Virus record (IMG/VR): IMGVR_UViG_3300023249_000007
Coordinates: 1 to 25,317 of that record
Source: a virus
Direction: 5' to 3' (one strand)
DNA length: 25,317 nucleotides
Below the pieces are notes generated by a model. The model saw only the letters and a program-made list of their open reading frames with translations, did not search any database and had not been told where the DNA came from. Shown here one piece after another: positions 2,363-23,373 of this stretch (position 1 is the stretch's first letter; each line of letters opens with the position of its first letter). The position numbers were made by a program, and so were the translations under genes.

Positions 2363-3823
2363 ATGCTAAAAAAGAAATTTCCGAGCGAAGATTCTGTAGG
2401 ACGATTAAGACAATACGGTACTTATGAGCGACTACTAGAAGGTAATCATTATTCTGCGTACATGGGTGAGATAGGAGACAAATTTTCTGATAAGTATAAA
2501 GCTCTGCGATACATGACTTGCAATTTTGCAGGTTTAATTTCTAAGGTCATGGCGGATGTTTTATTTGGTGAGAAGGCAATCATAGAGTCTAGTGAAAACA
2601 ACACTAAGGAGCAGGACTTCATAGATGCACTTGTTTATGAGAACAATTTGAATACTCAGTTATACGAATCCTCTTTAATGAATTCTGCTAGAGGAGACGC
2701 AGTACTTAGAATTAGAGTTGAGGACAAGCAGATTAAAATAGAAGATATCAATCCTGCTATGTACTTCCCTACGATTGGTAAAAACTTTAGAGACGATCCT
2801 AGCGAGAAGAAATTGGTGTGGAAGGAGTATCTTAATAATGACAAGGGAAAGCAAACGACTTACTTGATAGAAGAAACATACACTAAAGGTGTGATAGAAA
2901 CTAATATTTATGAAATGAAAGGTAAGGACGAACAAGAAGTAGTTAAAAGAATAACAGTTAAAGATTACAATGCTTTAGCGGGTACAACGTATGAAGAAAA
3001 GGTAGACACAGGAATAGAGGAGATACCAATAGTTCATATTCCAAACTTTAGAGTGAATAATAATTATTTTGGTATGTCGGACTATCACGATTTAGAGTCC
3101 TTGTTTTTTGCTATTAACAACCGAATGACTAGCATAGACAATATTTTAGACAAGCACTCAGACCCTATACTAGCAGTACCAGAGGGAGTGTTAGACGAGA
3201 AAGGGAATGTAAGGAAGGAAGCATTACAAATGTTTGAGTTTAGAGAGGGAGAAGATAAGCCAGAGTATATTGTATGGAATGCTAATTTAGATATGGCGTT
3301 TCAACAGATAGACGAGATTATTAAAACAATATTTCTTATAGGAGAAGTGTCTCCTGATGTTGTAGGACTTGATTCAGGTAAAACATCAGCCGAGAGTGGT
3401 AGGGCTTTGAAACTAAGAATGCTTAGAACGTTAGCCAAGAAGAACAGAAAAGGGTTGTATTATGAATTGGGTATACAAAAAGCCATTGAAATAGCGAGTA
3501 TGTTTGCTAAAGCAGGAAACGTAGTAGGAGATATTACGTACAAGGGCGACCCTATTATTCCTAATGTAATGTTTGCTGACGGTGTTGTAGATGATAAGGT
3601 AGAAGAAATACAAAACGAAATGCTTAAACTTGAGTCGGGACTATCCTCACAAAAGAGTTCTATTAAAGTTGTAGAAGATTTTAATGATGAACAAGCAATG
3701 GCACGTATTAAAGAGATTAAAGAAGATAAAGCCGATAGAGCCGATTTTAATTCTGACAACCTTTTTCATCAGTATCAGGCGGAGGTAAATAAAAAAGATA
3801 AGGGTATAAATAATGAAGAATAG
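2363..3823 (+). CDS. Portal protein, SPP1 gp6-like
   Basis: A 486-residue protein directly after the large terminase. It would form the dodecameric ring at one capsid vertex through which DNA enters and leaves. The sequence has the features of the SPP1-type portal family: an N-terminal region with YERLLEGNHYSAYMG and a conserved NFAGLISKVMADVLFGE, a middle with PIVHIPNFRVNNNYFGMSDYHDLESL, and a long-helix region with SPDVVGLDSGKTSAESGRALKLRMLRTLAKK. The C-terminus is charged. It overlaps the next gene by 11 bases. No Shine-Dalgarno sequence is seen before the ATG; translation may depend on the AT-rich leader. Identification is strong from motifs and order. Confidence 0.93.
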   Translation: MLKKKFPSEDSVGRLRQYGTYERLLEGNHYSAYMGEIGDKFSDKYKALRYMTCNFAGLISKVMADVLFGEKAIIESSENNTKEQDFIDALVYENNLNTQLYESSLMNSARGDAVLRIRVEDKQIKIEDINPAMYFPTIGKNFRDDPSEKKLVWKEYLNNDKGKQTTYLIEETYTKGVIETNIYEMKGKDEQEVVKRITVKDYNALAGTTYEEKVDTGIEEIPIVHIPNFRVNNNYFGMSDYHDLESLFFAINNRMTSIDNILDKHSDPILAVPEGVLDEKGNVRKEALQMFEFREGEDKPEYIVWNANLDMAFQQIDEIIKTIFLIGEVSPDVVGLDSGKTSAESGRALKLRMLRTLAKKNRKGLYYELGIQKAIEIASMFAKAGNVVGDITYKGDPIIPNVMFADGVVDDKVEEIQNEMLKLESGLSSQKSSIKVVEDFNDEQAMARIKEIKEDKADRADFNSDNLFHQYQAEVNKKDKGINNEE

Positions 3824-8635: not shown

Positions 8636-9537
8636 AAATAGGATATGTTTTGTACGATTATCCACTACCTAGTGAAACGTGGATACCACTTGAAATAGAA
8701 GAGTTTATTATTAGAGGTTACGATGTTAAAGTACACCGACTTCAATATCCTTATGTAGATATAAGTGATTGTGATTTCATTCTATCTCATTTTGCTCATA
8801 TAGCACTTAAAGCTGCGAAGTTTAACAAGCCGTTTGGATTCGTTGCACACGCTTGGGATATTTGGACTGATAAGGGTAAGAAGTTCAGAGAAGTAACAAA
8901 AGACCCTAATTGTAAGTTTGTAGGATATATAACGAGCTATCATAAAGAGAAGTTCATGGAATGGGGAGTTCCTGAAGATAAGTTGGTATTCTGGGGTGCT
9001 AGTGTGGACGTTGATAGATTGAAAAGGACAAGAACTATGGGTGGTCAAGTTATATGTGGAGGTAGGTTTGTAGAAAAGAAAGGTTTAGACACAGCAATTA
9101 AAGCAGTACCCGACATAATGGTATTTGGGGACGGGGAATTAGCTCCTAAATTAAAAGCCATATCTAACAGGGCGAAGTTTCTAGGTTGGGTGGATAGAGA
9201 GGGTGTGTTTGATTTGTTTCAGAAGTCGTGGTTATTAGTAGCACCCTCAAGAGTGGCAGGAGACGGGGATACAGAGGGCATATCAACATTAGTATTAGAA
9301 GCGTTGTGTATGGGACTACAAGTAATAACTACTAAGGTAGGTGGACAAAGGGATTTAGAAAAGTTTGGGGATAGAGTACATTTTGTTAAGCCAAACGATG
9401 TTGAAGCCATAAGAGAATTAGTAAAGACGTTACCTCATAATTACGATTTAAGTGCTAGAAATATAATAGCTCAAGAAAGAAGCCCTAAGGCAATAGTGGA
9501 TAGTGTGGAACATAAAATATTAGAGGTAATGAAATGA
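8632..9537 (+). CDS. GT4-type glycosyltransferase
   Basis: A 301-residue GT-B enzyme. The C-terminal half has the family's donor-binding pattern: CGGRFVEKKGLDTAIKAV, then VFGDGEL, then E-x7-E from E215 to E223 (EGISTLVLE). The N-terminal half, starting MKIGYVLYDYPLPSETWIP, is the acceptor-side Rossmann domain; the phrase SETWI is common in enzymes of polysaccharide synthesis. There is no signal peptide or membrane segment, so it is cytoplasmic. It is joined to both neighbours by ATGA overlaps, which points to translation as a set. It probably adds a second sugar to the chain built by this cassette; sugar and acceptor cannot be deduced. Confidence 0.9.
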   Translation: MKIGYVLYDYPLPSETWIPLEIEEFIIRGYDVKVHRLQYPYVDISDCDFILSHFAHIALKAAKFNKPFGFVAHAWDIWTDKGKKFREVTKDPNCKFVGYITSYHKEKFMEWGVPEDKLVFWGASVDVDRLKRTRTMGGQVICGGRFVEKKGLDTAIKAVPDIMVFGDGELAPKLKAISNRAKFLGWVDREGVFDLFQKSWLLVAPSRVAGDGDTEGISTLVLEALCMGLQVITTKVGGQRDLEKFGDRVHFVKPNDVEAIRELVKTLPHNYDLSARNIIAQERSPKAIVDSVEHKILEVMK

Positions 9538-10376
9538 AGGTACTTTGGATCGCAGACTTTTTATTAAAAGATAATAAGGGGGGTGCACAACAGACTAATA
9601 GTGTAATGATAAAAGCAGGAAGGAAAAGAGGTCATTCTATTCGGGTGGTAAGTGGGGGCTCTCTGCCCGATTCTAAGGGTAGCTATGATGTCATTGTGAT
9701 TAACAACGTAACTAAGTATACAAAAGAGCAGATAGAGGGACTGGTAGCCACAGGGAGGGTAATTAGGTATGAACATGACCACTGGGTAGCAGAAAATTAC
9801 CCAGAATTATATAAAGAGGTCAAACACACGATATTTTTAAGTCCTTTTCATAAAGAAAGCATAGAAAAGCAAATAGGATACAAAATTAAAAACTCAAGTT
9901 TAGTGCCTTCTCCAATAGATACAAAAAGATTTACACTAGGAAAAGAGAAAGAAGATAATACCGTAATTTATACAGGGAATATTTGTAAAGAAAAGGGTAT
10001 TGAAGGACTGATAGAATACGCTTTAGAGAATAAACACTTGAAGTTTTATGTTATAGGTTGGGGTGCTATGGTAGAAGATGTTAAAAAAATTGATAACATA
10101 CAATACCTAGAAGGAATGGAACAAGAAAAGTTAGTAGAGTATTACCAGAAGTGTGAGTATTTTTACCATAGACCGACATTGAAAGAGCCGTTTGGAAGAA
10201 CAGTTGTAGAAGCGTATTTATGTGGGTGTAATTTATTACTCAATAATAACGTAGGTGCTATATCTTGGGATTGGGATTATAGCGATTATAATTTAATTCA
10301 AAAGAAGGTTCAATCTCAATCTAATTTTTGGAACATAATAGAAAATGAAATACAAACATCAGGGAATATGGAGTGA
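9534..10376 (+). CDS. GT4-type glycosyltransferase, short
   Basis: A 280-residue GT-B enzyme. The N-terminus MKVLWIADFLLKDNKGGAQQTN has the acceptor-domain loop. TVIYTGNICKEKGIEGLIEYA opens the donor domain, and E-x7-E begins at E218 (EPFGRTVVE). It is shorter than usual GT4 enzymes, mostly at the C-terminal helix. Its ATG overlaps the previous stop, and AGAGGT upstream is one of the few purine-rich ribosome sites in this cassette. The last 32 bases overlap the following methyltransferase in another frame. With the preceding two genes, the cassette encodes four GT domains, enough for a short oligosaccharide. Confidence 0.88.
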   Translation: MKVLWIADFLLKDNKGGAQQTNSVMIKAGRKRGHSIRVVSGGSLPDSKGSYDVIVINNVTKYTKEQIEGLVATGRVIRYEHDHWVAENYPELYKEVKHTIFLSPFHKESIEKQIGYKIKNSSLVPSPIDTKRFTLGKEKEDNTVIYTGNICKEKGIEGLIEYALENKHLKFYVIGWGAMVEDVKKIDNIQYLEGMEQEKLVEYYQKCEYFYHRPTLKEPFGRTVVEAYLCGCNLLLNNNVGAISWDWDYSDYNLIQKKVQSQSNFWNIIENEIQTSGNME

Positions 10377-10881
10377 GTTGCTTCCTAGTTTAAGTTGGAG
10401 TAGAAATTGGCACGAAAAAGAAGACAACGAAATCCTTTGTAAGTATGCTGAAAAAATAAGCGGGCATATTTTAGAAATTGGCAGTGCAGAGGGACAATCG
10501 GGAATATCAATGTTACTAGCAAACGATAGCGTGTATTGTGCTATGGTAGAGCCGTTTGTTACTACTAACTTACTTGTGAACATAAAGGCAATGGAGTTAG
10601 GGGACAGGACAATTATTTTACCTACTACATCAGAAAAGGTGTTTCTACCACCACTAGGATATGAGTTAATATTTATAGACGGCGTTCATACTTACAATAT
10701 GGTCAAGCACGATTTAGAGAAGTTTTCTCAAACGGGTGCTAAGTGGATTATACTTCACGATGTGAATAAGCCAGAGATAGCCAAAGCAGTTGGAGAGTTT
10801 ATATTAAAAGGGGATTATGAGACTGAATATTTAGGAGAGAACATTCAGGTATTATCTAAAATTAAAATAGACCGAAAATGA
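10345..10881 (+). CDS. Class I SAM methyltransferase, small
   Basis: A 178-residue Rossmann-fold methyltransferase of the Methyltransf_24 type. The SAM-binding motif LEIGSAEGQSG is at residues 43-53, an acidic second strand is MVEPF, and IFIDGVHTYNMVKHDLEKF followed by LHDVN carries the acidic/His residues that bind metal in sugar O-methyltransferases of this group. Lying among glycosyltransferases and a nucleotide-sugar dehydratase, it probably O-methylates a sugar, perhaps the terminal unit or the deoxyhexose made by the next gene. A role on protein or DNA is less likely from context. It overlaps the previous gene by 32 bases and the next by ATGA. Confidence 0.8.
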   Translation: MKYKHQGIWSELLPSLSWSRNWHEKEDNEILCKYAEKISGHILEIGSAEGQSGISMLLANDSVYCAMVEPFVTTNLLVNIKAMELGDRTIILPTTSEKVFLPPLGYELIFIDGVHTYNMVKHDLEKFSQTGAKWIILHDVNKPEIAKAVGEFILKGDYETEYLGENIQVLSKIKIDRK

Positions 10882-11885
10882 AGAAAGCATTTATTACGGG
10901 CTGTACTGGACAAGATTCTGCTCATTTGTCTAAGTTATTATTAGAAAAGGGCTATGAAGTGGTCGGTGGGGTTAGAAGAAGTGCAGAGAGAAGTTATTGG
11001 AGGTTAGAAAAACTGGGAATCAAGGATAGGATAAAGTTTGTAGATTTTGATCTACTTGATTATCACAATATGGTAGAAGTAATTAGGGAAGGTCAATTTG
11101 ACGAGATTTATAATTTAGCGGCTCAATCGTTTGTGGGGACTTCTTTTAGACAGCCGTTTTATTCTCTTAAATGTAATGGACTAGCAGTATGTGAGTTAGT
11201 AGATATTATTCATCAATTTAGTCCTCAATCTAGGTTTTATCAAGCTAGTACGAGTGAGATGTTTGGCAAGGTAAGAGAAACACCACAGAGCGAATGGACA
11301 CCGTTTAATCCTAGTAGTCCTTATGGAATAGCTAAACTAATGGCTCATAACTTTGTGGAAATGTATAGAGATAGTTACGACTTCCACGGGTGTTGTGGAA
11401 TACTTTTCAATCACGAAGGAGAATTAAGAGGTAACGAGTTTGTTACGAAAAAGATTACTAATTATGTAGCTGATTATAAGAATGGTAAGGTAAAGGATAC
11501 TTTGAAGTTAGGGAATATCAATGCTAAAAGGGATTGGGGATACGCAGGGGATTATGTGGAAGCCATGTGGATAATGATGCAATTAGACAAGCCAGACACT
11601 TATGTTGTGGGGACAGGTAAGCAATATTCTGTGAAAGACTTGGTTAAAACTGCGTTTAAGTGTGTAGGAATAGATATCAAATGGAAGGGGAAAGGAGTAG
11701 ATATAAAAGGAGTAGACAAGGAAACAGGCAAGGTCTTAGTAGAAATAAGCGAAGAGTTTTACCGACCTAATGATGTAGAAACTTTATTAGCAGACAATAG
11801 AAAGATAAGAAACAGATTAAAATGGCAACCTAGAACGTCTTTTGAGAAGATGATAGGGAAAATGGTTGAAGATAGGTTAGATTGA
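10878..11885 (+). CDS. gmd: GDP-mannose 4,6-dehydratase
   Basis: A 335-residue short-chain dehydratase. The NAD(P)-binding loop is TGCTGQD at residues 7-13. The catalytic set is complete: T125 and E127 in ASTSEMFG, then Y149-x3-K153 in SPYGIAK. NHEGELRG is the family's NHE loop. It converts GDP-mannose to GDP-4-keto-6-deoxy-mannose, precursor of rhamnose-, fucose- and perosamine-type sugars. No reductase, epimerase or aminotransferase follows in this window, so the product would have to be finished by host enzymes. It closes the cassette, ATGA-linked to the methyltransferase, and fits a phage that supplies its own donor for glycosylation. The close family relative is GDP-6-deoxy-mannose reductase, but the motifs favour the dehydratase. 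Confidence 0.93.
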   Translation: MKKAFITGCTGQDSAHLSKLLLEKGYEVVGGVRRSAERSYWRLEKLGIKDRIKFVDFDLLDYHNMVEVIREGQFDEIYNLAAQSFVGTSFRQPFYSLKCNGLAVCELVDIIHQFSPQSRFYQASTSEMFGKVRETPQSEWTPFNPSSPYGIAKLMAHNFVEMYRDSYDFHGCCGILFNHEGELRGNEFVTKKITNYVADYKNGKVKDTLKLGNINAKRDWGYAGDYVEAMWIMMQLDKPDTYVVGTGKQYSVKDLVKTAFKCVGIDIKWKGKGVDIKGVDKETGKVLVEISEEFYRPNDVETLLADNRKIRNRLKWQPRTSFEKMIGKMVEDRLD

Positions 11886-13015: not shown

Positions 13016-14590
13016 ATGGCAGATTTTCCAACAGCTAAAACAGAAGCAGTTGACAATGTAACAGACGTTTTAGCTAAGCATGTAAATAATTTAGAGGATA
13101 AAGTTGGTATTGATGGAAGTGTTGACACGGACTCTTTGGATTACAAAGTAAATCATTTTTCCGAAACAGACCCAGTATATACGGCTTGGGACAAAGATTA
13201 CGATGATTTAACTAATACACCTACTATACCAACTAGGGATAGTTTAGGTTTAGATACAGATGATACAGTAACTTTCGCTAACTTATCGGGAACAAATACA
13301 GGAGATAATGCCACAAATAGTAATTATAGTGGTTTAGATACAGCCAAATTGAATATAGACCAAACCACCCCACAAACCACAGTAGGTACTTTTACTTTTC
13401 CCGTTCTCCACACCCCAACCATAAATGGCGGAATATTAGCTAATGACGATATAACCATTCAAAGTACAACCCACGCCACAAAGACAACAAGTTATGTGAT
13501 TTTACAGCCAACAAGTGGCAACGTCGGCATCGGCACCACCTCCCCTAATAATTTACTTCAAGTTAATGATTTAATCTCTTTTACCAATGCTGACTGGCGA
13601 ACTCAAATTGGTTACCAAGCTGGTAAGTATGATTTAGGGCAATACAATACTTGGATTGGTTATCAAGCTGGCTCGGCTAATAATTCTACAGGTAAAACTG
13701 ACGCTGCCGATTATAATACCGCAGTTGGCTATCAGGCTCTCTACTCCAACACCACAGGTAGCAGAAACTCTGCTCAGGGATATGCTGCTCTTCACTCCAA
13801 CACCACAGGTAGCTACAACTCTGCTCAGGGATATGCTGCTCTCCGCTACAACACCACAGGTAGCTACAACTCTGCTCAGGGAATGTATGCTCTCTACTCC
13901 AACACCACAGGTAGCTACAACTCTGCTCAGGGATATGCTGCTCTTCACTCCAACACCACAGGTAGCCAAAACTCTGCTCAGGGAATGTATGCTCTCTACT
14001 CCAACACCACAGGTAGCTACAACTCTGCTCAGGGAGTGTATGCTCTCTACTCCAACACCACAGGTATCAGAAACTCTGCTCAGGGATATGCTGCTCTTCA
14101 CTCCAACACCATTGGTTCTTCTAATACAGGGGTTGGTTACAATACAGGCAGAGGTATAACTTATGGTTCAGGTAATACTATTTTAGGAGCAAATGTTACT
14201 GGACTTGCTGCTGGTTTGACTAATAATATTATTCTGGCAAATGGTACTGGGGCAATAAAAGCACAAAATGATGGAACAGATTGGAACTTTACAGGCAACG
14301 TCGGCATCGAGATAACAGCTCCAACAGCTAAACTTCATATAGTAGGTTCAGCAGATACCCAACAACTCATTGTCAAAGGTAACGCTACCCAGACAGCTAA
14401 CCTTGTAGAAATTCAAAACTCAAGTGCTACAGTTTTAGTAAAAGTTTCTGGTACTGGTGTATTCTTTCCCTTACAGGCAGCAACTGCCTCTGCTCCAGCT
14501 TATGTTAAAGGTGGATTGTATTTTGACCTAACATTAAATAAGTTGATGGTTGGAGGTGCAACTGGGTGGGAGGCTCTCAGTAGTGCTTAA
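13016..14590 (+). CDS. Repeat-containing trimeric fiber/adhesin-like protein
   Basis: A 524-residue protein. The N-terminus (residues 1-40, with VTDVLAKHVNNLEDKVGI) is a coiled-coil start seen in many phage fiber proteins. Next come Thr/Asn-rich strands and an NVGIGTTSPNN motif near residue 170. Eight 17-residue units of the form NSAQGYAALHSNTTGSY follow (residues 234-369), related in pattern to YadA/Hep_Hag head repeats, which form trimeric beta-rolls. NTG/GSGN repeats follow, then a second NVGI motif and a C-terminal GLYFD..LNKLMVGG..GWEAL segment. No intramolecular chaperone peptidase is visible. It is probably a head or tail fiber that binds a surface. The repeat part is C-rich and T-rich on the coding strand, unlike the purine-rich neighbours, which suggests recent acquisition or expansion. 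Confidence 0.78.
   Translation: MADFPTAKTEAVDNVTDVLAKHVNNLEDKVGIDGSVDTDSLDYKVNHFSETDPVYTAWDKDYDDLTNTPTIPTRDSLGLDTDDTVTFANLSGTNTGDNATNSNYSGLDTAKLNIDQTTPQTTVGTFTFPVLHTPTINGGILANDDITIQSTTHATKTTSYVILQPTSGNVGIGTTSPNNLLQVNDLISFTNADWRTQIGYQAGKYDLGQYNTWIGYQAGSANNSTGKTDAADYNTAVGYQALYSNTTGSRNSAQGYAALHSNTTGSYNSAQGYAALRYNTTGSYNSAQGMYALYSNTTGSYNSAQGYAALHSNTTGSQNSAQGMYALYSNTTGSYNSAQGVYALYSNTTGIRNSAQGYAALHSNTIGSSNTGVGYNTGRGITYGSGNTILGANVTGLAAGLTNNIILANGTGAIKAQNDGTDWNFTGNVGIEITAPTAKLHIVGSADTQQLIVKGNATQTANLVEIQNSSATVLVKVSGTGVFFPLQAATASAPAYVKGGLYFDLTLNKLMVGGATGWEALSSA
13715..14122 (+). repeat. Tandem 51-base repeat, eight units, in-frame
   Basis: Eight consecutive 51-base units encode 17 residues each. The first (NTAVGYQALYSNTTGSR) is divergent and seven begin NSAQG. 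Within the array, stretches such as CTCTACTCCAACACCACAGG are identical between units, and two unit types (GYAALHS and GMYALYS) alternate. Near-identity at DNA level implies recent duplication or homogenisation. Because 51 is a multiple of 3, copy number can change without losing the frame. Confidence 0.92.
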
Positions 14591-15284: not shown

Positions 15285-16067
15285 GTGGCTAAGTTTGGAA
15301 CAATCAAATATGGAGAAGGGAGGTATGGAGTTCAATCGGAGAGGACTCTTTATATTCAGGGTAAGTTAGCAGGAGGTTCAGAGAGAAGCATTTACATTTG
15401 GGGGACTACTGATGATGGTTCAGAGAGGGCATTATGGGTATACGGACAATCCAGTTCTAATAGCGAGAGAGCATTATATCTTGAGGGTGAATCTGTAATA
15501 AGTGAAAGAGCCATTTACCTAGAGGGAATTGACATCGAAAACAGTTCTGAAAGGATATTGTATATACAGGGTTCTAGTAGTTCTTATTCTGAGAGAGGAT
15601 TTTACATAATAGGAGGACTGGGAGGTTCGAGTGTAAGGACACTATATATCTCTGGAATTGGTACAAGTAGTTCAGAAAGAACTATTTACATAGGAGCAGG
15701 GTCTAGTGATACTTCCGAAATTGGACTCTGGATTGAGGGTTGCTTAACTGATTACGAGGAGAGGGAGATATATGCCTCTGGGGTCGCTACAAGCGATTCT
15801 AACAGGAACTTATATATCTGGGGGTATATTGATACCTATTCGGAAAGAGGTATATATATAGATGCGAATATGGGTAGTGAGAGAGGGTTGTATATTATTG
15901 GACTGGGTTGTCCGTGGTATTCAGACACTAAGGAAGATTGGAAAACTAAAGATACAAAGGATTGGTATGATAAGGAGGGTTCTTTGTGGCAACAGGATAA
16001 TAGCTCAAAATGGTATAATATAGAAGAAAAATCCTACAAGGTTAAGACACGAAAACCTAAATGTTAA
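15285..16067 (+). CDS. SER-repeat virion protein (about fourteen 14-residue repeats)
   Basis: A 260-residue protein from a GTG start. The first 17 residues (MAKFGTIKYGEGRYGVQ) resemble the openings of some phage tail proteins. Residues 18-206 are about fourteen copies of a 14-residue unit with consensus SER.LYI.G plus a variable, Ser/Gly/Asp-rich pentapeptide; examples are SERTLYIQG, SERALYLEG and SERGLYIIG. Some copies are degenerate (SEIGLWIEG, SNRNLYIWG). The last 50 residues are Trp/Lys/Asp-rich (EDWKTKDTKDWYDKEGSLWQ) and look like a separate binding domain. The units should each form one strand and turn, suggesting a repetitive beta structure. The same repeat recurs in the tail hub ORF at 21646. 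It is probably a virion fiber or adhesin; the exact place on the particle is unknown. Confidence 0.8.
   Translation: MAKFGTIKYGEGRYGVQSERTLYIQGKLAGGSERSIYIWGTTDDGSERALWVYGQSSSNSERALYLEGESVISERAIYLEGIDIENSSERILYIQGSSSSYSERGFYIIGGLGGSSVRTLYISGIGTSSSERTIYIGAGSSDTSEIGLWIEGCLTDYEEREIYASGVATSDSNRNLYIWGYIDTYSERGIYIDANMGSERGLYIIGLGCPWYSDTKEDWKTKDTKDWYDKEGSLWQQDNSSKWYNIEEKSYKVKTRKPKC
15336..15902 (+). repeat. SER repeat array (42-base period), upstream copy
   Basis: Coding repeat with a period of about 42 bases and roughly 13.5-14 units. The SER codons are flanked by variable codons, so amino-acid conservation is higher than DNA conservation. A segment at 15831-15851 (GATACCTATTCGGAAAGAGGT) closely matches 22438-22458 in the hub array, indicating common descent or exchange. 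Confidence 0.85.
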
Positions 16068-16084
16068 TTTAATTCAAAGTAAAT

Positions 16085-16750
16085 ATGATAGAAACAAAAA
16101 GAGGTTACGCAACGAAATCTGAGGTTGAAGATTATTGTGATATTGCGATAACCGATGAAAGTGAAGCAATAGAGCGAATAGAATTAGCAGAAGAAATAAT
16201 TGACAAGTACATAGGTTTTCAAAATGCTTTTATGAAGTACGAAAGGTCTGGTGTCGCTACAGGAGGGACTACAACTACCTTAGAAGATACACGTTCAGGT
16301 TCTCAGGTTAATTCGGTAACGGAGAACATACTTAGTTATTGTCTTTTAGAGATTATAAGTGGTACTAATTCAGGAGAATCCAAAGTGATAATTAGCAATA
16401 ATACAGAGGGTGTGCTAACAGTACAGAGTGCTTTTACAAGTGCTATAGACACAACTTCGGTGTATAGAATATATCAATTAGCAAAGTTTCCTAGAGGTAT
16501 AGATTACAAGTTAATAGACAATGTTTATTACAAGTATATTCCTGAGCAAGTTAAAAAGGCAACATTAGCACAAGTTCAGTATATGATAGAAATGGGGGAC
16601 GACTTCTTTATTAGTGGAGTTGATAAGACCTCAGAGAATATAGACGGTTACGATTATGAAACTGTTAAAGGTACTAGAAGAGAAATAGCACCTAAAGCTC
16701 GGGAGTATTTAAGAGGGTTAGTTAATAGAAGGGGTAAATTGATAGTATAA
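16085..16750 (+). CDS. Head-tail connector protein (gp6/gp15-like) with inserted beta domain
   Basis: A 221-residue protein at the start of the connector block. Residues 1-54 (TKSEVEDYCDIAITDESEAIERIELAEEIIDKYIG) and 131-221 (PEQVKKATLAQVQYMIEMGD, then EIAPKAREYLRGLV) are the helical bundle of adaptor proteins that form a ring under the portal. Residues 55-130 (SGVATGGTTTTLED through TTSVYRIYQ) are a beta-rich insert, not part of the usual 100-120 residue connector. The insert resembles a strand module seen in phage surface proteins and may decorate the neck. No Shine-Dalgarno sequence is seen. A TGGTATAAT box lies at 16011-16019 inside the upstream gene. Confidence 0.8.
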   Translation: MIETKRGYATKSEVEDYCDIAITDESEAIERIELAEEIIDKYIGFQNAFMKYERSGVATGGTTTTLEDTRSGSQVNSVTENILSYCLLEIISGTNSGESKVIISNNTEGVLTVQSAFTSAIDTTSVYRIYQLAKFPRGIDYKLIDNVYYKYIPEQVKKATLAQVQYMIEMGDDFFISGVDKTSENIDGYDYETVKGTRREIAPKAREYLRGLVNRRGKLIV

Positions 16751-16781
16751 AATTATGGTAGATAAAATATAGTTTAATACA

Positions 16782-17093
16782 ATGGTATATAACGATGCAG
16801 TAACAATTTATGACTCGGAAGCTAGAAACGACTATGGAGAAAAAACATGGGAAAGTGGATCAACTATTAAAGCCCGTGTTATAGAAAAATCCTCGGAAGT
16901 ATTAGACCCTAGAGGAAACAGAGTTATGAGCGATTTAATAGTTCATTTGCCAATAGATGAAGACGCAGAAATAGGACAGAAATTGGGGTATAACGATATA
17001 GATTATTTAGTATTAGCAGTAGCGAAGCCAAAGAATGAAGTAGGGCATACGAGGGATATTAAATTGATTTGCAAACGGTATGGCGAAGGTTAA
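16782..17093 (+). CDS. Head-tail adaptor / head closure protein (SPP1 gp16-like)
   Basis: A 103-residue protein of the head-tail joining family. It has the usual beta-barrel pattern: DAVTIYDSEARNDYGEKTW near the start, a middle strand region with VHLPIDEDAEIGQKLGYNDIDYLVLAVAKPKN, and a short basic end. It would sit between the adaptor ring and the tail and close the DNA channel. It overlaps the next gene by 14 bases, so the connector genes are translated together. No ribosome site is apparent. Confidence 0.85.
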   Translation: MVYNDAVTIYDSEARNDYGEKTWESGSTIKARVIEKSSEVLDPRGNRVMSDLIVHLPIDEDAEIGQKLGYNDIDYLVLAVAKPKNEVGHTRDIKLICKRYGEG

Positions 17094-17445
17094 TATAGAG
17101 TGGGAACACGATATTCCTAAAAGAGCCAAAGAACTGGTAAAGAAAGCAGTTACAGGACTGTGGGAAGCCAGTGAGGAGGCGGTAATAGTAATAGGAAACG
17201 AATCGGAGCGACAAGTTCCTTTGGATGTAGGAACGCTTAGAGACAGTTGGAGGACAGAGCCGTTAAAAGGAGAAATAGGTTTTAGTATGGGATATTACAC
17301 AGATTACGCAGCGAGATTACACGAACACCCTGAATATCATTTTCAAAATGGTAGGAAAGCAAAGTATTTAGAGCAACCGATTGAGCAGAACATGGGAAAT
17401 TGGCAAGGTCATTTTCTTAATAAATTAAAACAGGTTATGAAATGA
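17080..17445 (+). CDS. HK97 gp10-like tail completion protein
   Basis: A 121-residue protein with the signature of the HK97 gp10 family: an amphipathic helix (AKELVKKAVTGLWEASEEAV), then VPLDVGTLRDSW, then a glycine/aromatic stretch YYTDYAARLHEHPEYHFQNG followed by KAKYLEQPI. Members join the tail tube to the head connector. It overlaps both neighbours (14 bases and ATGA), in the standard order connector, closure, completion, tail terminator. Confidence 0.88.
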   Translation: MAKVNIEWEHDIPKRAKELVKKAVTGLWEASEEAVIVIGNESERQVPLDVGTLRDSWRTEPLKGEIGFSMGYYTDYAARLHEHPEYHFQNGRKAKYLEQPIEQNMGNWQGHFLNKLKQVMK

Positions 17446-17831
17446 ATCAAGTAGCATTAGAAATAGCACAGTATTTAGAAGATGAAGGTCATGGTACTTT
17501 GGGTACAGATTTGTTTGTTGATATGCTTCCTGATGTAAGTTCAAACGTGATAGCTATATTTACTACTGGGGGTTCAGTACCTGACATAGATTTACCTATA
17601 GGAAGTCCTAGTTTTGAGATTTTAGTTAGAGGAGAAAGTGCTAGTGTAGTTTACGACAAGTTAAAGGGTATGGTGGACGATCTACACCAGAAGTACAACG
17701 AGGTCTTAGTTACAGACGGTAATCATTATTATTCTATTCTCTTAAACGGGGAAATTAACACTCTGGGTAGAGACGATAAAGAAAGGATAGAATATAGTGC
17801 GAACTTTAGTTGTAAAATAAGGGGTCGCTAA
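17442..17831 (+). CDS. Tail terminator / minor capsid protein
   Basis: A 129-residue protein matching the size and pattern of tail terminators: an N-terminal helix (NQVALEIAQYLEDEGHGTLG), a strand pair with VIAIFTTGG, a central FEILVRGESASVVYDKLKGM and a C-terminal beta region with RIEYSANFSCKI. It would form the hexameric ring that stops tail-tube growth. It is translationally coupled to the preceding gene (ATGA). The CGC TAA ending is immediately followed by a small zinc-finger gene. Confidence 0.85.
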   Translation: MNQVALEIAQYLEDEGHGTLGTDLFVDMLPDVSSNVIAIFTTGGSVPDIDLPIGSPSFEILVRGESASVVYDKLKGMVDDLHQKYNEVLVTDGNHYYSILLNGEINTLGRDDKERIEYSANFSCKIRGR

Positions 17832-17833
17832 AT

Positions 17834-17998
17834 ATGATAAAATATGATGGTGAAGTATACAGAGAGTTGAGGTGTCCAAAATGTAGAGCTTTACTACTAG
17901 AGGAGTATGTTTACAACGGAAGGATTAGGATAAAATGTCCTAGATGTAAGGAGATTGTAACTATTCGTTTCAAGAGTCCTCTGGGAAAAAAGAAGTAA
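17834..17998 (+). CDS. Com-like zinc-finger protein, 54 residues
   Basis: A short gene starting MIKYDGEVYRELRCPKCRAL, then GRIRIKCPRCKEIVTIRF, and ending in a basic tail (KSPLGKKK). Two CPxC knuckles (CPKC and CPRC) spaced by 17 residues form a zinc-ribbon pattern like phage Mu Com, an RNA-binding protein that opens the mom mRNA for translation. The tail after the second knuckle is basic, as expected for nucleic-acid binding. It starts 2 bases after the tail terminator stop and ends 22 bases before the major tail gene, so it fits between them without conflict. A role in translation control of tail genes is inference. Com-type ribbons also occur as uncharacterised small phage proteins. Confidence 0.85.
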   Translation: MIKYDGEVYRELRCPKCRALLLEEYVYNGRIRIKCPRCKEIVTIRFKSPLGKKK

Positions 17999-18020
17999 TT
18001 AAGTTTTAATTTATATATTT

Positions 18021-18530
18021 ATGAGCAGCGATATAGCCAATGTAAAATTAGGAGTATGTTCTGTATCCTTCAATAGTACTGACTTAGGTCATACTAAAGG
18101 TGGTGTTACAGTATCATACGAGCCAACCTACCATGATGTTACGGTAGACGCTTATGGGGAGACCGTAGTGGATAAAAGGTTACTGGGAGAGAAGCTAATA
18201 GCTACAGTACCATTAGCAGAGGCAACCTTAGCTAATCTACAAATAGCAATACCAGAGGGTACTACGAGTGGTAGTAAACTAACAATAGGTTCTTCAGTAG
18301 GAGACTCGCTGTTAGATGAAGCACAGCAGTTGGTACTACACCCTGTTGAGAACGCTTCAGACAACTTAGATGATGATGTGGTATTTTACAAAGCAGTAGT
18401 AAGCAATAGTATTGAATTACCTTACGCTAATGATGGTGAGAGAGTAATAGAAGTAGAATTCACAGCCCTATTAGACGAGAGTCAAAGTGATGGAGGATAT
18501 CTCGGTTTCGTGGGTGATAGCACCAGTTAA
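18021..18530 (+). CDS. Major tail protein (tail tube)
   Basis: A 169-residue beta-rich protein after the tail terminator. It begins with an NVKLGVCSVSFNSTDLGHTKGGVTV-type segment, common in siphovirus tube proteins, where the early strands pack into the tube wall. VSYEPTYHDVTVDAYGE and a C-terminal strand region (ERVIEVEFTALLDES) complete the fold. It would polymerise as stacked hexamers around the tape measure. The length is at the short end for tube proteins, and no Ig-like addition is present. Absence of any sheath gene indicates a non-contractile tail. Confidence 0.88.
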   Translation: MSSDIANVKLGVCSVSFNSTDLGHTKGGVTVSYEPTYHDVTVDAYGETVVDKRLLGEKLIATVPLAEATLANLQIAIPEGTTSGSKLTIGSSVGDSLLDEAQQLVLHPVENASDNLDDDVVFYKAVVSNSIELPYANDGERVIEVEFTALLDESQSDGGYLGFVGDSTS

Positions 18531-18571
18531 GGATTTAATTTTAGCAGAGAACTCTTAAAGAGTCGCTAAGT

Positions 18572-18931
18572 ATGAAAAAACAAAAGGTTAAGTTAAGTGG
18601 TAAAGAAGTTGAAATACAGTCAGTCCCTTTAAGGGAATTATTGGCTGTATTAGAGGTTTTTGACACTATACCAGATAAAATTAAAGATATAGATGTTGAT
18701 GGTTCTGATAGTTCAAGTAATGTTAGGATATTTGTAAAACTATTAACAAGTTCAAGTGATGAGATATTCACTATTTTATCAAGGTTAAGTAAAATACCTA
18801 AAAAGGAAGTAGAGGAATTAGAGTTAGCAGAAGCAATTAGGTTGTTCAAAGTTCTTTTAGAAGTTAATGATATAGAGTTAGTAAAAAAAGAGTTCGGGGA
18901 AATCAGCAAGATATTCAAGACAGCCAAGTAG
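18572..18931 (+). CDS. Tail assembly chaperone, short form (gpG-like)
   Basis: A 119-residue acidic/helical protein between major tail protein and tape measure, the fixed place of tail chaperones. It starts with a lysine-rich strand (KKQKVKLSGKEVEIQSVPLRELL) and continues as mixed helix with a Ser/Asp loop around residue 50. A 5-bp hairpin, ACTCT (18551-18555) with AGAGT (18559-18563), precedes the ATG and covers AAAGAG, a possible ribosome site. Near its end, an A7 run allows a -1 shift into a longer form (next two entries). It would coat the tape measure during tail assembly and leave the finished virion. Confidence 0.85.
   Translation: MKKQKVKLSGKEVEIQSVPLRELLAVLEVFDTIPDKIKDIDVDGSDSSSNVRIFVKLLTSSSDEIFTILSRLSKIPKKEVEELELAEAIRLFKVLLEVNDIELVKKEFGEISKIFKTAK
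18883..18889 (+). promoter_or_regulatory. Programmed -1 frameshift site (A AAA AAA G)
   Basis: In the short-form frame the codons read GTA AAA AAA GAG, so the heptamer is an X XXY YYZ slippery site with all A. A one-base slip backwards continues as AGA GTT CGG GGA and stays open to 19254. The zero-frame stop is TAG at 18929-18931, about 40 bases downstream. This is the usual arrangement of siphovirus tail chaperones. I did not find a compelling downstream pseudoknot by eye. Confidence 0.82.
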
Positions 18932-19254
18932 AGAAAGGTTGGCTTTATAGTATCATTGATGTACTTTCTTCGGAATATAGTTGGACTCTTGACTACATAT
19001 TAGATTATTTACACTTGGGAGATTTATTAGGTTTTCTAAATGTTATAGAGAAACGAAAGAAAAGAGAGGCACTCTTATCATTAGCAATAATTCATAATCC
19101 TTTCTCAAAAGACCCTAACACGTTATTTAGGGAGTTAAGGGAAGATACAGAACCTTATAAAAACGGTATAGATAGAGTAGGAATTGATGATTTAAAGAAC
19201 AAATTGAATGATAAATCTAAGTTTATAAAAGTAAAAAATGGCAAGTCTAGGTGA
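18889..19254 (+). CDS. Tail assembly chaperone, frameshift extension (gpGT T-part)
   Basis: The -1 frame is open from 18871 to 19254 and has no good start: the only candidate is a TTG at 19015 without a ribosome site. Joined to the short form through the A7 site it gives a 227-residue fusion. The extension contains GWLYSIIDVLSSEYSWTLDY, then YLHLGDLLGFLNVIEKRKKREALLSLAI, matching the T-domain pattern of helical proteins that bind the tape measure. The extension overlaps the tape measure start by 17 bases. Coordinates here cover the part after the slip only; the protein is made as one chain with the upstream gene. Confidence 0.82.
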   Translation, partial: RVRGNQQDIQDSQVEKGWLYSIIDVLSSEYSWTLDYILDYLHLGDLLGFLNVIEKRKKREALLSLAIIHNPFSKDPNTLFRELREDTEPYKNGIDRVGIDDLKNKLNDKSKFIKVKNGKSR

Positions 19255-21091
19255 TATAACAGCAACACTTGTGGCTGATATTAAAGATTTTGAGGCGAAA
19301 ATGGATAAAGCCAAAAGTACTCTTGACGGGATTCAGAACACAGGTAAAAAAACAGGGAAATCACTAACAACAGCGTTCAAAGATGCAGAGAGAGGATCTA
19401 AAATGTTCCTAGGTACTATGACTGCTTTGGGTACTGCTATTGGTGTTTATATTGGGAAGGCAACCCTAACTGCGGCAAGAACAGAAACAATGGGTATTGC
19501 TATGGAGGCAGTTGCTAAATCAACAGGAGTTTCTACAAAGGTGTTAAAAGAGCAAGAGGAAATATTGAAAAAGCAAGGTATTACTACTCAAGAGTCGAGG
19601 AATATCCTAACAAGATTTATGCAATCTCAGTTAGATGTAGCAGATGCCAGTAAAATTGCTCGTGTTGCACAGGACTTAGCAGTTGTGGCAGGAGAGGATT
19701 CTAGTGCAATGACAGGGAGGTTGACAGACGCAATTGCTACTATGAACCCTATGTTGCTTAGACAGGCAGGTATTGTAATGAATCAGGGAGAATTGTTTGA
19801 TACTTATGCAGAAACTCTTGGGAAAAGTGGTGATGAATTGACACAGGTGGAGAAGAAACAGGCAATGGTTAATATAATAATGGAGGAAGGTAAAAAGGTA
19901 GCAGGTTCGTATGATATGGCGATGGAAACAGCAGGTAAGAAAATGGGTTCACTAAAGAGATATTTTGAAGAAGCAGAAAATACTATTGGAAATGTTTTTC
20001 TACCTACTTTTGGTCTACTGATAGATAAGGTTACGGAGTTTATGAAACAGGTTACACCAGAAAAAGTTGAAGCAGTATTTGCTAAACTTAATGAGTGGTT
20101 TCCAGTTATAGTTGCTTTAATATTAGGTGCTGCACTTCCTGCGATAGTTGCAATGGGGGGTGCATTATGGACTGCATTCGCACCATTATTACCTTTTATT
20201 GCTGCGGGAGTTGCTCTTGGGTTGATACTAAAATCTCTTGGTGTGGATTTTACTGATGTAAGTGCTTTTATTCAAGACAAGTTTGTACCTGCGATAATTA
20301 AAATATGGGAGTGGATTCAAAAGACATGGTTAGTCATTAAAGATAAATGGGAAGAGTACGGGCAACCTATCTTTGATATGATAGTTGATTTTATAGAAGT
20401 AACAATAATACCTGCTTGGGAAAAGTTAAAAGAGAGTATAAAAATTGCTATGGAAGAGTCGGGTATGGAAATGGAGGATTTTAAGAAAATTCTTAAAATT
20501 GTAGCCATAGTCATTGGTGGAGTTTTACTTGGAGCTGTATTAGGAATTATAGCTGCGTTAAGTGGGCTTATGACTGTTCTGGCTAAAGTGATTGAGTGGA
20601 GTGGAGAATTAAGAAACAAAACAGTTGAGAATTTTAAGGAGATTAAGGAGAAGATACAATGGCACGTGGATAAGATAAAGGCAATATTTAAAGCAGATAG
20701 TTTTAAGCAAGGCATACTGAAAGCAATGAAGTATCCGTTTGAGGCATTTTGGCATTATATAACAGGATTATTTGATAAGATAAAAAACAAGATCCAAGAC
20801 GCATTAGATTTAACTAAGAGGCACAGTCCGTCTGTAATTGACAGGTTGAAATTTGGGATTAAGAAAGCAGAGAAAGAAATCAACAAATTAGGAAGTATAG
20901 AACTTGCCCCTATAGGTAGAGTTTTAACAGAGAATTATACAGGAATGTCTGGTGGTACGGGTGCTATGAATTTAAGTATCAATATGTCAGGTGCTAACAT
21001 AAGCTCACCAGAAGTGGCTCAGGAGTATGCAGAACAAATAGGAGACGCTATTATTGGTAAATTAAGAACTAACAGGAGAAGTTATGGCTAG
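19238..21091 (+). CDS. Tail tape measure protein
   Basis: A 617-residue, mostly helical protein in the standard position after the tail chaperones. Residues 1-60 open with SLGDITATLVADIKDFEAKMDKAKSTLDGI, typical of tape measures of phages with small genomes. Residues about 60-230 form a helical domain rich in Ala/Met. Two hydrophobic stretches (about 290-335 and 420-450) could act in membrane passage on DNA entry. The C-terminus has QDALDLTKRHSPSVIDRLKFG, a conserved tape-measure end motif, and a hydrophilic tail. Its length suggests a rather short tail of the order of 90-100 nm by the usual 0.15 nm per residue. No lysozyme or peptidase domain is visible. Confidence 0.94.
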   Translation: MASLGDITATLVADIKDFEAKMDKAKSTLDGIQNTGKKTGKSLTTAFKDAERGSKMFLGTMTALGTAIGVYIGKATLTAARTETMGIAMEAVAKSTGVSTKVLKEQEEILKKQGITTQESRNILTRFMQSQLDVADASKIARVAQDLAVVAGEDSSAMTGRLTDAIATMNPMLLRQAGIVMNQGELFDTYAETLGKSGDELTQVEKKQAMVNIIMEEGKKVAGSYDMAMETAGKKMGSLKRYFEEAENTIGNVFLPTFGLLIDKVTEFMKQVTPEKVEAVFAKLNEWFPVIVALILGAALPAIVAMGGALWTAFAPLLPFIAAGVALGLILKSLGVDFTDVSAFIQDKFVPAIIKIWEWIQKTWLVIKDKWEEYGQPIFDMIVDFIEVTIIPAWEKLKESIKIAMEESGMEMEDFKKILKIVAIVIGGVLLGAVLGIIAALSGLMTVLAKVIEWSGELRNKTVENFKEIKEKIQWHVDKIKAIFKADSFKQGILKAMKYPFEAFWHYITGLFDKIKNKIQDALDLTKRHSPSVIDRLKFGIKKAEKEINKLGSIELAPIGRVLTENYTGMSGGTGAMNLSINMSGANISSPEVAQEYAEQIGDAIIGKLRTNRRSYG

Positions 21092-21638
21092 TTATTCGTT
21101 AACAATAGACGGTACAGACAGAACCCTAAATGTTTCTAATAGGGCTATAGAGATTACGGATGAAATGGGTTCAGACGCCTCTGTAATGAGTTTTACGATG
21201 GTTATTAGGGATTCAGGGGTATTACCAGAGTGCGATCAGGAGGTGGTTATTACAGATGGTGATGATGTAAAGTTGTTTGGAGGGAGGATATTAAAACTAA
21301 ACCCAATTAAGAGGGGTTCTCTTATTGAGTGGAGAATAGATTGTGTTGATTACACTAGAGATTTAGATAGAAACTTAGTAGTAGAAGGGTACGAAGATAA
21401 GACCGATAAGGAAATAATCGTTGATATTGTTGATAACTACTGTGGTGGTACTGGGATTACTTATGACAATGTTACAGAAGGTATTTCAATATCAAATATG
21501 ACTTTCAGTTATATGCCACCATCAGAGTGTTTTAGTAAAATCTGTAAGATGACAGGTAGGGCTTGGTATATTGATTATGACAAAGATATTCATTATGGTA
21601 CAAAGTTTAGAGACCATGCACCATTTAATATAATATAG
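21084..21638 (+). CDS. Tail hub protein, N-terminal half (split gene)
   Basis: A 184-residue protein overlapping the tape measure stop by 8 bases, with AGGAG 6 bases upstream. It starts with an immunoglobulin-like/beta-barrel region (SYSLTIDGTDRTLNVSNRAIEITDEMGSD), continues GGRILKLNPIKRGSLIEWRIDCVDYTRDLDR, then NMTFSYMPPSECFSKICKMTGRAWYIDYDKDIHY, which are hub motifs. It stops at HAPFNII, where the full-length family continues toward LRNRVYVRGG. That C-terminal half is found in the next ORF. The hub therefore appears split by an inserted cassette; see findings. Alternatives are a real two-chain hub, a shifted reading frame, or a one-base sequence error. Confidence 0.82.
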   Translation: MASYSLTIDGTDRTLNVSNRAIEITDEMGSDASVMSFTMVIRDSGVLPECDQEVVITDGDDVKLFGGRILKLNPIKRGSLIEWRIDCVDYTRDLDRNLVVEGYEDKTDKEIIVDIVDNYCGGTGITYDNVTEGISISNMTFSYMPPSECFSKICKMTGRAWYIDYDKDIHYGTKFRDHAPFNII

Positions 21639-21645
21639 AAGAGAT

Positions 21646-23373
21646 ATGGCATCTGTAGATACTAATAGTGAGAGGGGTTTATACATAAATGACACTACTG
21701 AGAATTTAATAAGGAAAACAGTTATTGAAGATTTCACAGGAGTAACACTTCCTTCAGGGTGGAGTACTTGGACTGTTGGTAGTGGTAATTCTTACTCCGT
21801 CAATGGCTATTTACAAGAGAATACAGGATCTAGTGGTAGATGTGATATTGGTGCATATAAGGATACCAATGTTGATTTTGGAGTAAGTGGAGCTATTTAT
21901 ACAAAAATTACTGATATTAGTTTAGATAGTGGATTTGCTAATTTGGAGTTAATATTTGAAGATAATACATATCCAGATGTTCATTCGTTAAATGTAGGTG
22001 TTAATAGTGAATATGTAACATCTGGGGCAAATACAGGTTCAGGTTGGGATACTGTAGATTTCATTGTCAATACTGGATATTCGTACTTTAGGATTAGGGT
22101 TCAAAATAAGACAGCATACTTTGAAGCATCTACTGATGCTGAGAATTGGGTTGAGATTGCAAATACATCGTTTGATGTTGATGTTGCTGACTGTAGACTT
22201 CACGTATGGACTTGGGATGAAGACAATGCAGGTACATCAAGATTTGACGATATTACTTATCAATGGATTGGAATATCTGATGAAAGAAAGTTGTATCTAC
22301 AAGGTTCTTCAGTTAGCAATAGTGAAAGAGATTTATATATTCAAGGTATTGCAACGACAAGTAGTGAAAGGGATTTATATATATCAGGAGGTGGAGTATT
22401 AAACTCTGAAAGAGGATTATATACAAGAGGGGTTGAAGATACCTATTCAGAAAGGGGTTTGTGGATTGACGGAACTCTTGTGAGTAGCTCTAATAGGGGA
22501 TTTTATATAGAGGGAATAGTTAATGGGAGTGCTTTGTATAAAAACTTTACGATTGGATTAGACAATTCTGCGTTAAGAAATCGTGTTTATGTGAGAGGTG
22601 GTACATATCTTTCAGATGAAGTTACGATTAAACAGGTAGCTGATGGTGAACAAACGGTGTTTTATTTGCCAGAGAAACCACATGATATTAGTATTCTTGA
22701 GGGGGTTACTTCCAAGACGGTAGGAATAAAGAACATAGACACATATACTGATTATGATTACCTTTTGAATTATCAGGAAAAGTATATTGAGAAAGATAAT
22801 GCCCCTACTGTTGATACGGTTTTATCAATTAGTTACAAGTATGATGTCCCTGTATTAGTCGCAGTTGAAGACTCTACTTCCATAGAGAAGTACGGACAAT
22901 TAGAATACATTATCTTTGACAACAAAATAACCAGTATTGAACAAGCAAGAGATAGGGCAAGTGCTGAACTAACTGATTACGCAGAATCAATAACAAGTGG
23001 TCATTTTGAGACCCACACAGCAGGATTCAAAGCAGGGCAGTTCCTAAAGGTTGACCTTCCTGACCTAGATATTGATGAAAGGTTTATGGTAAAGAGTGTG
23101 AGGGCAAAGTCGTTCGGAGGTGGAAGTTTTACTTATGACATACAGATAGTTTCCACAGAAATGTTGGGAATTATAGGGTTCTTAATAAGGATACTGGAAG
23201 ACAATAAGAATACACTTAGTATATCTTCAGACGAGGTAGTAGATGAAATTACTTCCATTACAGCAGAGTCATTTAGTTTAGTCGCAGACACTCCTGTGCT
23301 AACTACTCACGAAGGGGCATTTAAGTATGATAGTGATGCTGATTGGGATATTGCCGAGTGGGACGAGGTCTAA
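21646..23373 (+). CDS. Tail hub C-terminal half with lectin-like domain and SER repeats
   Basis: A 575-residue protein starting 7 bases after the first hub half. Order: one SER repeat at residues 7-15 (NSERGLYIN); a beta-sandwich at about 20-205 starting EDFTGVTLPSGW and ending RFDDITYQW, resembling DUF1349/concanavalin-like lectin folds; six SER repeats at 211-290; then from residue 300 FTIGLDNSALRNRVYVRGG, EQTVFYLPEKPHDISI and KTVGIKNIDTYTDYDYLLNY. The last part is the C-terminal half of the hub. A helix/acidic tail follows. The lectin domain and SER array probably project from the tail tip and could bind glycans. There is only a weak GAAGAG ribosome site. No catalytic residues are obvious. 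Confidence 0.82.
   Translation: MASVDTNSERGLYINDTTENLIRKTVIEDFTGVTLPSGWSTWTVGSGNSYSVNGYLQENTGSSGRCDIGAYKDTNVDFGVSGAIYTKITDISLDSGFANLELIFEDNTYPDVHSLNVGVNSEYVTSGANTGSGWDTVDFIVNTGYSYFRIRVQNKTAYFEASTDAENWVEIANTSFDVDVADCRLHVWTWDEDNAGTSRFDDITYQWIGISDERKLYLQGSSVSNSERDLYIQGIATTSSERDLYISGGGVLNSERGLYTRGVEDTYSERGLWIDGTLVSSSNRGFYIEGIVNGSALYKNFTIGLDNSALRNRVYVRGGTYLSDEVTIKQVADGEQTVFYLPEKPHDISILEGVTSKTVGIKNIDTYTDYDYLLNYQEKYIEKDNAPTVDTVLSISYKYDVPVLVAVEDSTSIEKYGQLEYIIFDNKITSIEQARDRASAELTDYAESITSGHFETHTAGFKAGQFLKVDLPDLDIDERFMVKSVRAKSFGGGSFTYDIQIVSTEMLGIIGFLIRILEDNKNTLSISSDEVVDEITSITAESFSLVADTPVLTTHEGAFKYDSDADWDIAEWDEV
22276..22515 (+). repeat. SER repeat array, hub copy
   Basis: Six units of about 42 bases encoding SDERKLYLQG, SERDLYIQG, SERDLYISG, SERGLYTRG, SERGLWIDG and SNRGFYIEG with variable linkers. 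A seventh, separate unit lies at 21664-21690. DNA around 22438-22458 nearly matches 15831-15851 in the other array. Confidence 0.85.

Follow-up and report, generated by a model that had tools for sequence, protein, structure and literature searches.

The virus record IMGVR_UViG_3300023249_000007 from IMG/VR, whose 25,317 bases we refer to as the window, encodes arrays of a 14-residue repeat of the form S-E-R-x-L-Y-I-x-G-x5 (the SER unit) at two locations: in gene A, which is positioned directly before the head-tail adaptor genes, and in an open reading frame (ORF) of the tail hub. Between near-identical phages the arrays change in blocks, the hub is split in some loci and continuous in others, and domain searches place lectin-type domains in the array genes of certain relatives. 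With moderate confidence, we interpret the SER array as a portable, length-variable β-solenoid stalk of the phage adhesion apparatus, which recombines and bears exchangeable heads. The fold of this stalk is predicted, whereas its location in the virion and its binding to cell-surface glycans are putative.

Gene A (15285..16067, + strand, as are all gene A and hub features below) has a GTG start and encodes a 260-amino-acid protein that consists of an N-terminal motif KFGTIKYGEGRYGVQ (15285..15335), array A (15336..15917), and a Trp-octad C-terminal segment (15915..16064; Trp 211, 219, 227, 235 and 243 in the translation, a period of 8) with a final Cys. Array A contains 14 units of 14 residues by register, 13 by a strict regular expression and 12 above the profile cut-off; the spacing is exactly 14 in 10 of 13 cases and 13, 15 and 12 in the remainder. 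The hub ORF (21646–23373) contains seven units, of which one is isolated at 21667 and six are in tandem at 22279–22530 with a spacing of 14 in all five cases. Composition-shuffled gene A and hub proteins yielded at most one unit in 300 shuffles each (means 0.003 and 0.017), as scored with a unit profile trained on the window arrays among others, and a two-unit DNA pattern that occurs three times in the window had a mean of 0 in 100 shuffles. One repeat family thus occupies two genes, as a sequence-only reading of the window had claimed; the 14-residue spacing given there holds for the hub tandem and for most of gene A. That reading had also matched the DNA of the two arrays. Positions 15831–15851 and 22438–22458 do agree at 19 of 21 bases but are not identical, and the longest exact word shared by the two genes has 12 nucleotides (nt) and is located elsewhere.

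The pattern of conservation was derived from 250 units with an exact spacing of 14 taken from 12 arrays, with loci L010 and L019 omitted as near-duplicates. Arg occupies position 3 in 91% of these units, Leu, Ile or Val position 5 in about 99%, Tyr position 6 in 90% (Tyr, Trp or Phe in 99%), and Gly position 9 practically always, the core frequencies being inflated because the units were chosen by profile. Positions 8 and 10–14 are variable, most of all 8, 10 and 11. The expectation that a SER/YI/G frame is kept while linkers and flanking positions vary was therefore borne out: S1-E2-R3-L5-Y6-I7-G9 are constrained, and positions 4, 8 and 10–14 vary.

Comparison of close relatives revealed gain, loss and exchange of array segments. 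From position 15889 onward, locus L006 is identical to the window at 875 of 880 bases, whereas just before it only 32 of 50 bases agree, and further upstream there is a single matching stretch of 52 bases (83%). This boundary (15888..15889, no strand) falls within the last unit of array A. L006 carries 48 units compared to 14 in the window and has a different upstream gene. A second group comprises L010, L014 and contig 3300005916_000012, which have flanks that are 99.4–99.9% identical. The L014 array is 28 residues (two units) longer than those of L010 and 3300005916_000012, and the latter contig lacks 432 residues (about 31 units) of the L014 array. Furthermore, L010 contains DUF2341 and Laminin_G_3 between the N-terminal motif and the array, and neither is present at the L014 counterpart. 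The N-terminal motif is similar in L006, L010 and L014 despite the different array that follows, and the C-terminal end ...KPKC is also present in L006 and L022, with similar ends in L010, L014 and L023.

These differences could in principle reflect errors of metagenome assembly, as all loci are metagenome-derived IMG/VR contigs and repeats collapse easily. We regard this explanation as very improbable. Exact internal repeats reach at most 11 nt in array A of the window, 15 nt in L006, and 25 nt in L010 and L014; short reads should resolve such lengths, which makes assembly collapse unlikely. Moreover, the array indels preserve the reading frame, and in the L006 contig the difference extends to the upstream gene.

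L017 and L019 have C-terminal array halves in common and differ in their N-terminal regions, which contain DUF2341/Laminin_G_3 in L017 and an unassigned region in L019; Laminin_G_3 scores above its cut-off in both L010 and L017, and DUF2341 does so in L017 but not in L010. A segment in which irregular short spacings are followed by eight regular units (a 1-then-8 pattern) recurs at about 1969–2390 and 3637–4060 of L014, at about 569–990 of L011, and in L017 and L019. When all 10 pairs of five copies, including that of array A, were compared, linker identity was 0.25 in register versus 0.08–0.19 at other shifts. The clear in-register pairs are the two L014 copies (0.48), the second L014 copy and L017 (0.38), and L011 and L017 (0.35), values that also count position 8; in the other pairs, including all those with array A, the linkers do not stand out in register. 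As L017 matches none of the non-array genes of the window and L014 matches eight of them, a transfer of array segments from one phage lineage to another is probable. The gene that immediately precedes the L017 array gene encodes a LAGLIDADG endonuclease (L017 1156–1617), and an HNH endonuclease gene (L021 4350–5159) is found in the fibre/array gene cluster of L021. Such homing endonucleases could promote exchange in these two phages; the scanned proteins of the window include none.

Substitutions in the compared tracts were counted for codons inside units. The core displays 5 nonsynonymous and 19 synonymous changes, and the variable positions 19 and 7 (Fisher p 2.8e-4). An excess of nonsynonymous change at the variable positions is thus present relative to the core, but the ratio near 2.7 is approximately what we estimate for relaxed constraint, and positive selection is unsupported by these counts. 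The differences are clustered, and therefore resemble imported tracts rather than scattered mutations. Where neighbouring units have the same core residue, their synonymous codons agree no more frequently than shuffled ones in 10 of 11 arrays, and only L011 deviates (z 2.4), which indicates that each unit is old and under a constraint of its own. Along the arrays, the identity between units does not change over lags of 1–10. Recent tandem duplication of neighbouring units was rejected on the basis of the latter two results.

The same observations bear on another explanation, in which the array is a passive spacer whose changes in length and units result neutrally from recombination in a repetitive gene, and in which other proteins do whatever binding there is. 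Linker changes that resemble relaxed constraint, unit identity that is independent of the distance between units, and a window gene A to which a Pfam scan assigned no recognisable head domain all agree with it. We nevertheless consider a passive spacer rather unlikely, because (i) the core has been kept while synonymous sites became saturated, so that the units are individually selected, (ii) two distinct types of phage have Laminin_G_3 at the end of an array, and (iii) the eight-unit segment is conserved in register, linkers included, between some phages.

The second array of the window resides in a module that interrupts the hub. The N-terminal half of the hub is a separate ORF (21084..21638; phrog_400, phrog_196), and the C-terminal half (21646..23373; PF24032, YQBQ-like) follows the inserted module, in which the unit search located the isolated first unit (21667..21708) and the six tandem units of array B (22279..22530). 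Between them lies a candidate concanavalin A-like (lectin-like) domain (21709..22278; PF17851 GH43_C2, E 0.038, below cut-off). The hub C-terminal domain proper (22531..23370) is 62% identical to that of L009 and 70% to that of L022. In eight of 11 loci (L029 and L031–L034, which are of one type, L035, L009 and L036) the hub is one continuous frame with no units, whereas in the remaining three (L007 and L008 of the window's type, and L022) units precede a separate C-terminal frame; the L008 and L029 hub loci are cut by contig ends. The N-terminal hub halves of the window and L022 terminate in the same residues, HAPFNI. In the window, the N-terminal half stops at 21636–21638 and the next ORF opens with an ATG at 21646 in a different frame; in L022, TGA TAA stands between the halves. 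The part of the module ahead of the units also differs, being the candidate PF17851 domain in the window and an unassigned domain in L022. From the split and continuous hubs, the common HAPFNI site and the differing modules, it is probable that array-bearing modules divided a plain hub at a single site, once or twice. The two products would presumably reassemble into a hub.

The structural part of our interpretation derives from AlphaFold2 models. Array A, modelled with 19 array rows, gave a mean predicted local distance difference test (pLDDT) value of 60.6 and a predicted template modelling (pTM) score of 0.57, and 14 regular units of L014, modelled with 16 rows, gave 74.9 and 0.74. Both models contain one strand of about seven residues per 14-residue unit. 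In VIA-align comparisons, the closest structures to the array A model are the SufB/SufD β-helices (chains of the SufB-SufC-SufD complex; Z 17.0, 199 residues, root-mean-square deviation (rmsd) 2.7). They again rank first for the L014 model (Z 15.7, 188 residues, rmsd 2.8), where the next other row has a Z of 9.8, and the SufB/SufD rows across these two moderate-confidence models span Z 14.4–17.0. The next other structure for the array A model is a CsgA fibril in row 8 (Z 12.3, rmsd 8.2). One YadA-type head domain (7o23) scores Z 5.8 with an rmsd of 6.8, a comparison of a monomer model that says nothing on the trimer. The arrays are thus predicted to be β-solenoids that most resemble the flattened SufB/SufD helix. 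In our reading, the models show a flattened solenoid in which two units complete one turn, a number that the sequence tests neither support nor exclude: the two-unit indel fits it, and the 31-unit deletion does not need it.

An alternative to the single-chain solenoid is an intertwined trimeric β fibre, similar to T4 gp5 or the adenovirus shaft. Trimers are common among phage fibres, a unit made of a strand and a glycine would suit such a fibre as well, and the confidence of the array A monomer model is only modest. The monomer solenoid, however, emerged twice, with a pTM of 0.74 for the regular array, and its best structural matches are single-chain helices, which leaves the trimeric fibre a doubtful alternative in our assessment.

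Strand alternation in the models suggests that L5, I7 and G9 point inward and that Y6, positions 8 and 10 and a polar loop point outward. If so, the units themselves might be the binding surface, with an outer Tyr6 ladder and variable positions 8 and 10 that tune glycan recognition. The near-invariant aromatic residue at position 6, the peak of variability at 8, 10 and 11, and the absence of an accepted domain match in the gene A arrays of the window, L006 and L014 are compatible with this idea. It is improbable in our view, as there is no sign of positive selection at the variable positions and the assignment of sides depends on strand alternation in a model.

In the stalk reading that we favour, each unit would contribute one strand (approximately residues 5–11, LYIxGxx), and the gene A stalk would extend between the N-terminal motif and the Trp-octad segment. 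Certain relatives have a lectin-type domain (DUF2341/Laminin_G_3) joined to the N-terminal end of the array. In the hub, possibly a lectin-like domain together with six units would have been inserted at one site, by which the gene became two ORFs. Because all units encode the same frame, a crossover inside any unit stays in register, and phages could therefore change the length of the stalk and swap its head domain and upstream genes while the C-terminal end remains fixed.

Several results weigh against this interpretation. Array A of L003, L004 and L005 matches that of the window to the last nucleotide (0 differences), so the array is not constantly changing. No lectin domain scores above its curated cut-off in the window, and the hub module of L022 has no match at all. 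The confidence of the array A model is low, and Foldseek searches of the PDB and BFVD returned nothing at E <= 0.001 (best PDB E values 0.17 and 0.30). Finally, no difference between even and odd unit lags that might accompany two units per turn was seen, and the large deletion of about 31 units is an odd number.

The sequence-only reading had further supposed that units move between the two arrays of the window. This exchange found no support: the arrays share words of at most 12 nt, and both nearest-unit comparisons and array-specific profiles place the hub units no closer to gene A units than to the arrays of other phages. A hint of exchange or joint evolution comes from L022 alone. Position 7 is Ser or Thr in 23 of 30 units of its large array and in six of seven units of its hub array (arrays at 2–2002 and 7326–8966). 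In the window the counts are 0 of 12 and 1 of 7, and no other array counted exceeds 7 of 36. The longest word common to the two L022 arrays is 17 nt. This shared consensus, a single case, fits either past exchange or common selection within one phage. A broader proposal is that SER solenoids represent an undescribed class of adhesion element, in which a stalk doubles as a built-in recombination joint, heads, lengths and upstream genes are exchanged across lineages, two virion sites are occupied, one of them via a split of the hub, and the L022 arrays co-evolve. We put this forward only tentatively.

That the repeat is undescribed is judged from the libraries named here and from a text search of the literature. 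Pfam, PHROGs and NCBIfam, the libraries differing per array, gave no accepted match to the repeats of array A, L006, L014, L020 or L022: for array A there was no library match at E <= 0.01, and for the other four arrays nothing or sub-threshold scraps only. Matches of long arrays to MAX_effector (E 8e-4), phrog_25508 (E 6e-5) and phrog_1541 (E 3e-6) were dropped, as they fell below the curated cut-off or covered a short stretch, with no passing domain. A profile built from 33 array segments had 0 matches at E <= 1 among PDB sequences. Annotated phage records contained no match to array A, array B or the regular L014 array; a plasmid match at E 0.7 was disregarded. In the literature searched, no text contains SERGLYI, SERGLYL, SERDLYI or SERNLYI, and the matches listed include no description of a SER repeat.

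In IMG/VR, the two-unit DNA pattern occurs in 17 stretches on 16 contigs: four that are near-identical to the window (98.7–99.9%), L006, three of the L010 type, and L011, L015, L017, L019, L020, L021, L022 and L023. The genome_contigs collection (84,980 species) yielded three stretches, none convincing and two of them resembling chance; the third, a 42-nt tandem repeat with near-identical copies at 3641–4054 of L025, a Bacteroidales metagenome-assembled genome, reads GERMLYLRGASTLT and probably resembles the SER unit by coincidence. Both counts are lower bounds, because arrays that have diverged escape an exact pattern. The arrays of L015 (the end of the array ORF, to 709) and L020 (to 1689) terminate in QPRPPVETINISL and a second short repeat of the NIxLSQR kind, ahead of genes of the portal, scaffold or capsid region. 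Several of the phage loci, which are metagenome contigs, stop within arrays, and the profile and structure work draws on few sequences.

The main genes of the window all have the same direction. They begin with a methyltransferase, terminase, portal, minor head, scaffold and P22-type coat protein, continue with three glycosyltransferases, a methyltransferase, a GDP-mannose dehydratase, fibre-like genes and gene A, and end with head-tail adaptors, the major tail protein, tape measure, hub and a collar-domain protein. Gene A thus follows the coat-protein and fibre-like genes and directly precedes the adaptor gene at 16085..16750 (+ strand; phrog_541), and an array gene lies directly 5′ of the adaptor gene in all nine relatives with enough sequence (of 11 loci, two start within the adaptor). 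The sequence-only reading had taken both array genes for virion genes; for gene A, we infer a virion role from this position. The terminase has 1183 matches, all below 60% identity, the best among the matches listed being 37.6% to Parabacteroides phages. The three glycosyltransferases, the methyltransferase and the GDP-mannose 4,6-dehydratase occupy 6449–11885, between the coat protein and the fibre/array genes, and glycosylation of virion proteins by this gene set is possible. A second repeat protein is encoded at 13016–14590 by a 51-nt tandem repeat (7.4 copies, NTTGS-type units); its PHROG matches are virion structural and tail spike proteins, and an antisense frame at 13634–14101 is open throughout the NTTGS repeats. 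No reverse transcriptase of the kind used by diversity-generating retroelements was found among the window proteins scanned, which come from a fragment and leave out the ORFs at 18572 and 19015 and the terminase.

Phage receptor-binding genes are mosaic, and the joint between their parts is seldom visible. Here, a mosaic boundary can be located within a single unit of a repeat family for which the libraries searched have no match, and a head-proximal gene and the tail hub both contain this module. The SER arrays thus make it possible to ask if stalks built of repeats evolve as joints for recombination, and in what way a tail hub made of two halves is assembled.

Among known β-solenoids, SufB and SufD, which are iron-sulphur assembly proteins, have a flattened β-helix like the one predicted for the SER array but no sequence relation to it that we could find, and array proteins had no Pfam match to SufB/SufD, BACON or the YadA-type head (Hep_Hag). 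Curli CsgA and the YadA head are likewise solenoids of short repeats that differ from the SER array in their conserved residues. CsgA repeats have about 22 residues with conserved Gln, Asn and Gly positions, and the SER array has a period of 14 with the consensus SERxLYIxG; YadA head motifs also have about 14 residues, and the YadA-type head, a trimeric left-handed β-roll, lacks the SER.LYI.G frame of the window. BACON domains form tandem repeats in tail-associated proteins of crAss-like phages, where some arrays arose by duplication and others by horizontal transfer (PMC6949934). The SER arrays are also tandem repeats in phage tail-associated proteins, but their unit is a 14-residue strand and not a folded domain, and neighbouring units bear no sign of recent duplication. 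A further parallel is to evolved Dit and gp27-like Tal proteins, into which carbohydrate-binding modules are inserted (PMC7291167). As in those proteins, a gp27/YQBQ-like hub has an extra module in some relatives (3 of 11 hub loci) and not in others (8 of 11). In the window, however, the carbohydrate-binding domain is only a candidate (PF17851), and the module includes a repeat array, leaves the hub as two ORFs in place of a single polypeptide, and has a counterpart of the same array in a head-proximal gene.

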